Assembly: GCA_004295055.1 (NCBI GenBank)
Contig: SHNJ01000031.1
Span: 1-64,000 of the forward strand
DNA: 64,000 nt
Source of the DNA: Alphaproteobacteria bacterium
GTDB taxonomy: Bacteria > Pseudomonadota > Alphaproteobacteria > SHNJ01
Reading direction: 5' to 3'
Shown here: in pieces, positions 59,117 to 63,098 of the stretch
Layout of the letters: every line of letters starts with the position of its first letter
Position numbering within the stretch: position 1 is the stretch's first letter
Position numbers and translations under genes: made by a program
The notes under the pieces: generated by a model
The model's input: only the letters and a program-made list of their open reading frames with translations
The model's database searches: none
What the model was told of the DNA's origin: nothing

Positions 59117-59757
59117 ACATAATTTTGCTCGGCCCGCCAGGGGCGGGCAAAGGAACGCAGGCCAGAATTTTACAGGAAAAATTTGGCCTGATTCAGATCG
59201 CCACCGGCGATATGTTGCGCGAGCATATTAAACATCACACCGATCTTGGCCAGCTAGCGCAGAATTATATGAACCACGGCCAATTGGTTCCGGATCTGGT
59301 TGTCATTCAAATGATCGAATCGCGCATCGGCGAACCGGATGCGAAAAATGGATTTATTTTGGACGGTTTTCCGCGCACGGTGGCGCAAGCCGAAGCATTG
59401 GACAAAATGCTTGGCCGCAAAAAGTTGAAATTGGATCATGTCATCGAAATGAAAGTAGATGAAGAAGAGCTGATTAAGCGTATCGCCGGACGGTATACTT
59501 GCGCTGCTTGCGGCGAAGGGTATCACGACGAGTACAAAAAGCCGGTTAAAGCCGGAATTTGCGATAAATGCGGTTTCAGCCAGTTTACCCGCCGCGAAGA
59601 CGACAAGGCCGAAACGGTTCGCAAGCGCCTAGAAGCTTTCCGTGCACAGACCGCGCCGATCCTGCCTTATTATCAGTCTAAAGGCACATTAAAAACCGTG
59701 GATGGCATGGCTGAAATAGACGATGTGCAGCATCAATTAACGGCTATTTTAAAATAG
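59113..59757 (+). CDS. adk: Adenylate kinase
   Basis: Interconverts AMP, ADP and ATP. 214 residues, the long form with a zinc-binding lid (CAACGEGYHDEYKKP...CDKCG, four Cys), unlike the zinc-free E. coli enzyme. P-loop LLGPPGAGKGTQARIL, ATGDMLREHI, LDGFPRTVAQAEAL and RREDDKAETVRKRLEAF are clear. The start is GTG at 59113, overlapping the secY stop by four bases. The following gap is unusually long before rpsM. Confidence 0.97.
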   Translation: MNIILLGPPGAGKGTQARILQEKFGLIQIATGDMLREHIKHHTDLGQLAQNYMNHGQLVPDLVVIQMIESRIGEPDAKNGFILDGFPRTVAQAEALDKMLGRKKLKLDHVIEMKVDEEELIKRIAGRYTCAACGEGYHDEYKKPVKAGICDKCGFSQFTRREDDKAETVRKRLEAFRAQTAPILPYYQSKGTLKTVDGMAEIDDVQHQLTAILK

Positions 59758-59962
59758 TTTCCTAATTGTCATCCTAGCGGATATTAATATTTTGAGTAAA
59801 TACAACCGCTGGCGAATGCATAAAAGTCGTGTGCACGCGTGGTGTAATAAAACTCTTTAACATCATTAGACATTTAAAAGCATCAACACGCTGTTCGGGC
59901 TTTGCCTGCATAAAAGAAAATAATAATGTAAGGCTACCCGGTGGCAGGTGATCGACGATATC

Positions 59963-60349
59963 CTATGCGTTTTTTCTAACGATAACTGAATCGTTTGGCC
60001 GATCATTTACAATAGCAGTAACAAAGCAACCTATATTTTCAATCCATTCTAATGACCTGTATCTGCCGGTTGGGCCATTTTCATTTTGCAATTCTTTAAA
60101 CCTTTTTGGAATCGGAGATTGCCCAAAAATTAATTTGCCATTTCCGCAAATAATCATGAATGTCGATTCAAAGCCCATGTCTCCCTGTGGGCGTTCTTCC
60201 AGAACGCAATACAGAAAAGAGTTAGGATCCAATTTCATTTCCTCAACTGGAAGAAGCTGCGCAGCAGCAGGACAGATGGAATGCGCACCGCCATACTCTT
60301 GCGATTGAGATAACAGTAATTGTGCCAATACTATTGGACTATTTCCCAT
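59963..60349 (-). CDS. Hypothetical protein between adk and rpsM
   Basis: A 128-residue ORF on the minus strand from the ATG at 60349. Only a weak ribosome site (GGAAAA) is seen. No signal peptide or membrane segment. Aromatic and charged clusters (DPNSFLYCVLEERPQGDMGF, about 41-60, and FKELQNENGPTGRYRSLEWI) give a normal protein-like composition. No family recognised. It is antisense to the ribosomal operon and lies in an 857-base gap between adk and rpsM, where few bacteria have a gene. Gaps 59758-59962 and 60350-60482 hold nothing else that I can support. Confidence 0.5.
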   Translation of the reverse strand: MGNSPIVLAQLLLSQSQEYGGAHSICPAAAQLLPVEEMKLDPNSFLYCVLEERPQGDMGFESTFMIICGNGKLIFGQSPIPKRFKELQNENGPTGRYRSLEWIENIGCFVTAIVNDRPNDSVIVRKNA

Positions 60350-60482
60350 GTTTTTCCAGTATTTTTAAAAAGGCAATTTAACACCCAAAAGGATACAAAT
60401 CAAGGCTGAATCTCCTAGTTTTGATAGTATTACCGTCAGTCATACAAAATAAAATTTCCCAATAAATCTTGTGGATAACTAG

Positions 60483-60510
60483 TTGACGGCAAGGGGAAAA
60501 TCGCTATAAT
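60483..60510 (+). promoter_or_regulatory. Strong sigma-70 promoter of the alpha operon
   Basis: TTGACG (60483-60488), a 16-base spacer and a perfect TATAAT (60505-60510). It is 105 bases before the rpsM start, so transcription of rpsM-rpsK-rpoA-rplQ can start independently of secY-adk. The 857-base gap with an antisense ORF makes an independent promoter necessary. Confidence 0.8.
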
Positions 60511-60614
60511 CCGCCGTTCCTGGGCTGGGACTGTCTGGCGCAGGGGGGATTTGTTTTGTAAAAACAACAAGTTACAATAACAAAAAAGGCAAAATATTTA
60601 AAGGAGTCAGGGGC

Positions 60615-60995
60615 ATGGCCCGTATTGCAGGTGTAAATATTCCAACCCAAAAACGCGTGGTTATCGCGCTGCGTTATATCTATGGCATTGGTCCGAAAAA
60701 CGCCGTGACGATTTGCGACAAAGTCGGCATCCCGCACACCAAGCGCGTCATGGAATTAAGTGACGAAGAAATTTTAAGAATCCGTCAAGCGATTGACGAT
60801 GGTGACGATCCCGTAGAAGGCGATTTGCGTCGTGAAGTTTCGATGAACATCAAACGCAAACAAGACATCGGATCTTATCAAGGCAAGCGTCATGCAAAAC
60901 GTCTGCCGGTCCGCGGTCAACGCACGCATACAAACGCCCGCACACGCAAAGGCAAACGTATCGCGATTGCCGGCAAGAAAATGGTAACCAAGTAA
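60615..60995 (+). CDS. rpsM: 30S ribosomal protein S13
   Basis: 126 residues, standard (118). [60 protein letters not shown] and [20 protein letters not shown] match. S13 forms inter-subunit bridges with L5. AAGGAG precedes the ATG. First gene after the TATAAT promoter. Confidence 0.98.
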
Positions 60996-61015: not shown

Positions 61016-61411
61016 ATGGCAGAACCAGCAACAGCCACCCGCGTTAAACGCAAAGAAAGAAAAAACATCGCCACCGCCGTGGTGCATGTTAACGCAACGT
61101 TTAACAACACCATCATCACCATCAGCGATCAACAAGGCAACACCATTGCCTGGTCTTCGTCTGGCACCAAAGGTTTCAAAGGCTCGCGTAAATCGACGCC
61201 TTACGCCGCCCAGATTGCCGCCGAAGATGCTGGCCGCAAGGCGCAAGAACATGGCGTTCGCACCGTGTCGATTTTGGTAAAAGGTCCAGGCGCTGGCCGT
61301 GAATCCGCGTTGCGCGCATTGCAATCGGTTGGTTTCGGTATTACGTCGATCAAAGACATTACGCCGATTCCGCACAATGGTTGCCGTCCGCCGAAACGCC
61401 GCCGCGTCTGA
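61016..61411 (+). CDS. rpsK: 30S ribosomal protein S11
   Basis: 131 residues, standard. [60 protein letters not shown] and [20 protein letters not shown] are intact. S11 is on the platform near the mRNA exit. CAGGAT precedes the ATG. Confidence 0.98.
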
Positions 61412-61425
61412 TTTGATTTTTTGGT

Positions 61426-61504
61426 AAAGCCCGTGGGGTGGGTCTGTCGCAACCACGGGTTTTCATTGTTTAACATCGCATTTCTCGACAGACCCAGAAA
61501 TGCG
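61426..61504 (+). promoter_or_regulatory. Two hairpins with fully complementary loops upstream of rpoA
   Basis: Hairpin 1: stem 61426-61436 with 61453-61463, 11 bp (one G-U), core CCCGTGG/CCACGGG, then TTTTC. Its 16-base loop contains GGGTCTGTCG (61440-61449). Hairpin 2: CGCATTTCT (61477-61485) and AGAAATGCG (61496-61504), perfect 9 bp. Its whole 10-base loop, CGACAGACCC (61486-61495), is the exact complement of the segment in loop 1. The order supports a kissing-loop or two exclusive folds. It lies directly before the rpoA ribosome site (61514-61518). No family name is known to me. Confidence 0.7.
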
Positions 61505-61523
61505 GAGTTAGTTGGAAGTACGC

Positions 61524-62540
61524 ATGTTACAAAAAAATTGGCAAGCTTTGATTAAGCCGGATAAATTGAATATCGAGCCAGGTGTAGACCCGGCTCGCAC
61601 CGCAACCGTTGTCGCCGAACCATTAGAACGTGGTTTTGGTTTGACGATGGGCAACGCACTGCGCCGTATTTTATTGTCGTCGCTGCAAGGCGCGGCCATT
61701 ACCGCCGTTCAAATCGAAGGCGTGTTGCATGAATTCTCGGCAATCCCAGGCGTTCGCGAAGACGTTACCGATATTATTTTGAATTTGAAATCGGTTGGCT
61801 TGCGCATGTTTGGCGAAGGCCCAAAACGCATGCGTTTGTCCGGTACCGGTCCAGGCGAAATCACCGCTGGCATGATCGAAACCGGCCACGATATTGAAAT
61901 CATGAATCCGGAATTGGTTATTTGCACCTTGGATAAAGGCGCAAAAATCATGATGGAATTGACTGTGACGACTGGCAAAGGCTATGTGCCTGCCGCCGAC
62001 AGCCGCGCCGAAGACGCGCCGATCGGTTTGATTCCGATCGATGCAATCTACAGCCCGGTTCGCAAAGTATCGTACAAAGTGGAAAACACCCGCGTCGGTC
62101 AACGCACCGATTATGATAAATTGTCCATGACCCTGGAAACCAACGGCGCCGTCAGCCCTGAAGACGCTGTCGCTTATGCCGCGCGCATCATGCAAGACCA
62201 ATTGCAACTGTTCATCAATTTCGAAGAACCAACCGCCATCGTCGAAGCCGAAAAAGGCGTCGATCTGCCGTTCAACCGCAATTTGTTGCGCCGCGTGGAC
62301 GAATTGGAATTGTCGGTTCGTTCGGCCAACTGCCTGAAAAACGACAACATCGTTTACATCGGCGATTTGGTACAAAAATCGGAATCCGAATTGTTGCGCA
62401 CCCCGAATTTCGGCCGCAAATCTTTGAACGAGATCAAAGAAGTGCTTGGCCAAATGGGCTTGACCTTGGGCATGGAAATCCCAGGCTGGCCGCCAGAAAA
62501 TATTGAAGAGCTGGCGAAAAAATTAGAGGACCCATACTAA
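61524..62540 (+). CDS. rpoA: RNA polymerase alpha subunit
   Basis: 338 residues from the ATG at 61524, which has GGAAG 5 bases upstream; an in-frame TTG at 61512 would add four residues. N-terminal dimerisation domain ([58 protein letters not shown]) and C-terminal domain ([40 protein letters not shown]) are complete. Assembles RNA polymerase and contacts UP elements and activators. Preceded by the kissing-loop candidate and followed by a heptad array before rplQ. Confidence 0.98.
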
Positions 62541-62619
62541 GGGTTTCGGGATTTGGGGTTTGGGTTTAGGGAATTTCCTGTAAACCCAATACCCAAAACC
62601 CAATACCCAAAACCCTAAA
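62541..62619. repeat. Facing arrays of 7-base repeats between rpoA and rplQ
   Basis: Left array 62541-62571: four heptads (GGGTTTC, GGGATTT, ...) plus GGG, beginning right after the rpoA stop. Right array 62585-62619: five heptads (CCCAATA, CCCAAAA, CCCAATA, ...). The spacer is 13 bases, so the two fold into one hairpin. The rplQ ribosome site (GAGG) follows directly. Confidence 0.85.
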
Positions 62620-62628
62620 GAGGCAGAC

Positions 62629-63039
62629 ATGAGACATAAACTAAAACACCGCATTTTGAACCGCACCGCGTCGCACCGCACCGCGATGTTCGAAAATATG
62701 GCGAATTCGCTGTTAAAGCATGAGCAAGTGAAAACCACTTTGCCAAAAGCAAAAGAATTGCGCCCGTTCGTCGAACGCTTGATTACGCTGGGCAAAAAAG
62801 GCGGTTTGCATAATCGCCGTCAGGCCTATGCTACGCTGCGCGATGACAACACAGTATCGAAACTGTTCGATGCTCTGGCTAAGCGTTATGGAGCCCGTAA
62901 AGGCGGTTATATCCGCATTTTAAAAGCCGGCTATCGTCATGGCGATGCGGCCCCGATGGCAGTAATTGAATTGGTTGACCGTGATGTTGCGGCCAAAGGC
63001 CAGGATTCGGGTCAAAAAACCGAAACCGCCGCGGCGTAA
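62629..63039 (+). CDS. rplQ: 50S ribosomal protein L17
   Basis: 136 residues, standard (127). [60 protein letters not shown] and [20 protein letters not shown] match. Last gene of the cluster; a terminator follows. Gene order from rpsL to rplQ has no missing member apart from rpmJ, which is often elsewhere in this class. Confidence 0.98.
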
Positions 63040-63063: not shown

Positions 63064-63098
63064 AAGGGGCAGCCTAACTAGGCTGCCCCTTGTTTTTT
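63064..63098 (+). terminator. Rho-independent terminator of the ribosomal cluster
   Basis: AAGGGGCAGCCTA and TAGGCTGCCCCTT form a 13-bp perfect inverted repeat with a 2-base centre, followed by GTTTTTT. It starts 25 bases after the rplQ stop. Confidence 0.95.

Follow-up and report, generated by a model that had tools for sequence, protein, structure and literature searches.

The 112-nt gap between the essential genes rpsK and rpoA in the analysed window (the whole 64,000-nt stretch of contig SHNJ01000031.1 from an alphaproteobacterium) holds two stable, adjacent hairpins, H1 and H2, and ten consecutive bases of the first loop are the exact reverse complement of the entire second loop. This is a real and unusual sequence feature, for which a kissing-loop function appears possible, and the reading that we tentatively regard as the most likely is a lineage-specific intercistronic mRNA structure that would set the stability or the relative yield of rpoA. 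As identified from sequence and folding on the plus strand, H1 (61426-61463; AAAGCCCGTGG / loop GGTGGGTCTGTCGCAA / CCACGGGTTTT) starts 14 nt past the rpsK stop codon and consists of an 11-bp stem, with 10 Watson-Crick pairs and one G-U pair, and a 16-nt loop (61437-61452). H2 (61476-61505; TCGCATTTCT / loop CGACAGACCC / AGAAATGCGG), likewise on the plus strand, has nine Watson-Crick pairs, an outer U-G pair, and a 10-nt loop, and can be extended by its flanks (61471-61474 with 61507-61510). The initial annotation's stem lengths of 11 and 9 bp are right if the G-U pair of H1 is included and the outer U-G pair of H2 excluded, and its claim of loops complementary over 10 consecutive bases is exact in sequence, with the loop-1 stretch GGGTCTGTCG (61440-61449) able to pair with the complete H2 loop (61486-61495). 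An eleventh loop pair, U61439-A61496, is possible only with the top pair of H2 opened. Moreover, the predicted minimum-free-energy fold of the gap includes both H1 and H2, with a folding z of -2.0 for positions 61400-61530 and -2.9 for the gap alone. In this fold, four weak internal pairs occupy part of loop 1, which counts against a kiss, but two stable hairpins with complementary loops are what an intramolecular kissing-loop RNA consists of.

The gap lies in a plus-strand gene order of secY, adk, rpsM, rpsK, rpoA, and rplQ, where adenylate kinase, S13 (rpsM, 60615-60995), S11 (rpsK, 61016-61411), the RNA polymerase alpha subunit (rpoA, 61524-62540), and L17 (rplQ, 62629-63039) were matched by curated models, and secY was named from reading the list of open reading frames alone. 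No rpsD separates rpsK from rpoA, and these two genes are adjacent in every alphaproteobacterial locus examined. In the promoter scan, the sole strong match for rpsM-rpsK-rpoA-rplQ was an 11/12 match, TTGACG-16-TATAAT, upstream of rpsM (60483-60510, plus strand), and no promoter-like match at the scan's threshold was found from there up to rpoA, the gap included. Given this, rpoA probably depends on read-through, and the read-through mRNA probably includes the gap segment. The unit's last gene, rplQ, is followed by a canonical plus-strand terminator (63064-63091) with a 12-bp stem, a 4-nt loop, and a GTTTTTT tail. Ahead of rpoA, sequence reading gives a candidate Shine-Dalgarno GGAAG (61514-61518, plus strand), located 5 nt 5' of the rpoA start codon (ATG, 61524) and 9 nt past H2, and thus outside the two hairpins. 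As for the neighbouring gaps, the one between adk and rpsM (59757-60614) spans 857 nt, versus roughly 85-360 nt in 80 relatives, and contains a minus-strand open reading frame (59963-60349, 128 aa) with no NCBIfam match. The rpoA-rplQ gap (62541-62628) consists mostly of GGGTTT/AAACCC-like repeats and could form a long imperfect hairpin.

No other pair of neighbouring hairpins in the window has loops that match over 8 nt or more. Among 400 dinucleotide shuffles of the window (25.6 Mb), five loop matches of 8 nt and none of 10 nt were seen. No 10-nt hairpin-loop pair turned up in 0.40 Mb of other Alphaproteobacteria, and 0.68 Mb of the host genome likewise contained none, giving no sign of a genome-wide kissing design. 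Given how densely adjacent hairpins with long loops and stems of at least 9 bp actually occur, 2.8e-4 such pairs are expected per 0.74 Mb, or about 7e-4 per genome. Inverted repeats of ten bases spaced within 120 nt are themselves common in the window (45 pairs versus 14.4 expected), so that only the joint arrangement of hairpins and loops is unusual. The loop complementarity is thus beyond chance within its own genome, by a measure uncorrected for the size of the whole window scan. Since very many windows may have been screened at the first stage, the rarity amounts to strong evidence within the genome and moderate evidence overall, and the earlier statement that chance is unlikely stands in the former sense and is only moderately borne out in the latter.

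Coincidence, or a mutational by-product, is accordingly the rival that survives best, and we consider it a serious possibility. Here, H1 and H2 would be ordinary intercistronic hairpins with a functionless loop match, the 11-nt inverted repeat being either accidental or the product of a short template switch in which TGGGTCTGTCG was copied inversely. Besides the frequency of inverted repeats in the window, the estimate per genome equates to one such pair in some 1,400 genomes, one coincidence of this kind could occur in a scan of thousands of windows, and no trace of the element is seen in 88 other rpsK-rpoA gaps of the class. Less easily reconciled with chance is that both arms sit cleanly inside the loops of two strong stems, with one filling its loop exactly, and that neither the shuffles nor 1.08 Mb of other real sequence contained a 10-nt case.

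The comparison with relatives is shaped by the host, a 1.95-Mb genome from an isolated order within the Alphaproteobacteria. Two genomes of this order were examined, and the second (57% complete) yielded no rpsK and no rpoA. In other genomes, the highest-ranking matches to RpoA are 74-81% identical, led by those from Magnetospirillum and relatives. The H1/H2 element is known from one sequence, the exact element having no further copy in its own genome and none in the 384 other class genomes searched. Loop pairing of comparable length occurred in none of the 88 other alphaproteobacterial rpsK-rpoA gaps, in which loop complementarity did not rise above cross-genome controls, but all 88 come from other orders, and absence there does not refute the element. 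Covariance-model searches against Rfam, at gathering and permissive thresholds and with Alpha_RBS and other ribosomal-protein leaders included, returned no relevant family for the gap or the window.

More generally, the rpsK-rpoA gaps of 89 alphaproteobacterial loci fold better than their shuffles, with a mean z of about -2.1, versus -0.06 for the rpsM-rpsK gaps of the same loci, which suggests that RNA structure is maintained in the rpsK-rpoA gap across the class. The rpoA-rplQ gaps gave a folding z of -1.8. The reverse complements of the rpsK-rpoA gaps also outperform shuffles (z -1.7), and the class-wide structure signal is hence only partly strand-specific. Separately, we noticed in Acetobacter species (L046, L047, L054, and L055) a conserved hairpin, GAGAAATCGCTG(variable loop)CAGTGGTTTTTC, a short way 5' of the rpoA ribosome site, which is, as predicted from these sequences, another lineage-specific structure in the rpsK-rpoA gap.

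A different RNA fills this gap in Azospirillum and its relatives, and in genome G041, which stands alone in its order. This element, modelled as R1, comprises CCGTTCCGGGACA, a hairpin with the loop GCCATC, CAGCATGGGAACGG, and then CGATGGCATGAGG at the rpoA Shine-Dalgarno; it is predicted as a two-helix hairpin with a conserved GGGA(C/A)A bulge, its GCCATC loop being complementary to GATGGC beside the Shine-Dalgarno. R1 loci include L022 (1896-1949), L023 (1897-1952), L041 (1899-1955), L056 (1900-1955), L106 (1392-1446), and L180-L184. A covariance model built from ten training sequences, that of G041 included, gave six matches when run over 385 genomes of the class. The best five lie within rpsK-rpoA gaps, three of them independent, as G041 is a training sequence and G052, placed by coordinates, a near relative, and the sixth (E 0.007) is apparently coding sequence with no rpsK or rpoA alongside. 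Across 14 sequences, in an alignment fitted to the structure, 95.7% of cells pair and 10 of the 17 pairs have double-sided changes; a MAFFT alignment of ten sequences shows the same picture, and shifted controls scored far lower. By its alignment, R1 is demonstrably a covarying RNA in the rpsK-rpoA gap of another lineage. Because the GCCATC/GATGGC pair is itself nearly invariant, the pairing of loop and ribosome site is not yet established by covariation; in G041 it is retained with the register shifted (TCGCCAT/ATGGCGA). Ten loci that include R1 carriers had no Rfam match, and we found no description of the element in the literature searched. Against the window, the model scored no higher than 7.4 bits, and that on the wrong strand, and it had no match in the whole host genome. 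Nevertheless, since R1 shows covariation in the very same gap, we count it in support of a structured segment in the window.

The reading that we favour, a lineage-specific intercistronic structure acting on rpoA, would work as follows. The rpsM-rpsK-rpoA-rplQ mRNA would carry a lineage-specific structured segment in the rpsK-rpoA gap, with H1 folding just behind the final position of the ribosome on rpsK and H2 folding ahead of the rpoA ribosome site. After transcription of both hairpins, the loops would pair, probably through 6-8 of the 10 possible base pairs because the H2 loop lacks linker nucleotides to spare; pairing along all 10 nt, more than the 6-7 bp of well-known kissing complexes, may put strain on the loop. 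Such pairing would lock H1 and H2 into one compact unit, which could act as a barrier or a processing boundary at the mRNA level and set the lifetime and the pieces of the S13/S11 part relative to the rpoA/L17 part. Differential survival of these parts would then be reflected in the balance between the alpha subunit of RNA polymerase and the ribosomal proteins. Here, we infer the pairing of the loops in the cell, selection on that pairing, and the role in stability or processing. A bolder version, which we think unlikely, has a cis-acting kissing-loop element fixing the alpha/ribosomal-protein ratio as one form of a wider alphaproteobacterial control of rpoA from this gap, with the Azospirillales element as another.

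Quite unlikely, in our estimation, is that the complementarity serves two alternative RNA states, where a 10-11 bp helix (61439-61449 with 61486-61496) competes with H1 and H2 and is transient while H2 is under transcription. In predicted folds, a transcript ending at 61496-61500 does have this long-range helix in its lowest-energy structure (-32.5 kcal/mol), and the two-hairpin form is predicted to take over on completion of H2. On the other hand, the full-length two-hairpin form is better by about 7 kcal/mol (-37.4 versus -30.4), the helix must unzip the very stable H1, and no downstream signal is clearly gated, as forcing the helix increases the accessibility of the Shine-Dalgarno only moderately.

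We regard as very unlikely a protein-binding autoregulatory site, in which one of the operon's own products might recognise the leader as well as the H1 loop, with the H2 loop as competitor. This idea stems from a leader hairpin (60517-60546) at the start of the rpsM transcript, just past the promoter, that contains TGGGACTGTC (60526-60535), which differs by one base from TGGGTCTGTC of loop 1 (61437-61452). The window contains the pattern TGGGWCTGTC three times (in the rpsM leader, in loop 1, and, reversed, in loop 2), a leader/loop-1 match over 10 positions, one mismatch allowed, arises in about 1% of shuffles, and the motif followed by GC is present at only two plus-strand places genome-wide, namely the leader and loop 1. 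However, the pattern was picked post hoc, about two genome-wide occurrences are expected anyway, and a comparison of the leader with the whole gap is not significant, with about 24% of shuffle pairs reaching the match.

Finally, the initial annotation had described H1 and its TTTTC as terminator-like and proposed that the loop pairing either decides between read-through and stop or exposes the rpoA ribosome site. By a lenient rule H1 is terminator-like, having a stem and a weak plus-strand U-tract (TTTTCATT, 61460-61467) with 6 T of 8. Yet the terminators of this genome have loops of mainly 3-7 nt, and beside that at the end of rplQ, H1, with its unusually long 16-nt loop and its broken U-tract, would be a poor one. 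Moreover, the H2 loop sits 19-36 nt downstream of this U-tract, and by these coordinates no competing structure of the sort that an attenuator employs is ready before the termination decision at H1. A switch by which loop pairing selects whether transcription stops at H1 or continues into rpoA, a gene with no other promoter match, is therefore rejected as extremely unlikely on the order of synthesis, because H2 is transcribed only after the polymerase has left the U-tract and cannot influence the decision in cis. Exposure of the ribosome site fares no better, with GGAAG lying outside both hairpins and its predicted accessibility differing only moderately between alternative structures.

If the rpsK-rpoA gap carries lineage-specific control RNAs, as R1 suggests, it would be an overlooked and testable control point for an essential gene; for the window alone, the evidence is one sequence. 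In the literature searched, how the alpha subunit and the ribosomal proteins are balanced in bacteria with the S4 gene outside the alpha operon is apparently undescribed. The closest known counterpart by operon is the S4 leader pseudoknot of the Escherichia coli alpha operon (Alpha_RBS, RF00140), which likewise involves tertiary RNA pairing within the alpha-operon mRNA. That element, however, is found at the start of rpsM and binds S4, whereas H1 and H2 are located between rpsK and rpoA in a cluster without rpsD. Ribosomal-protein leaders resemble the H1/H2 segment in being structured RNA in untranslated stretches of ribosomal operons; of the 20 such leaders in PMC7247131, which include an L17 leader upstream of rplQ described for Alphaproteobacteria, none is placed between rpsK and rpoA. 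Unlike these leaders, H1/H2 has no Rfam match and is known from sequence alone. The Azospirillales R1 element shares the same gap and the complementarity of a hairpin loop, GCCATC, to a downstream stretch, GATGGC, by the rpoA Shine-Dalgarno, but differs from H1/H2 in sequence and layout and in its covariation across 14 sequences. Two hairpins joined by complementary loops are also found in the kissing complexes of ColE1 RNAI/RNAII and HIV-1 DIS, which are intermolecular and comprise 6-7 bp. By comparison, the predicted pairing of H1 and H2 would be intramolecular and would extend to as many as 10 bp.
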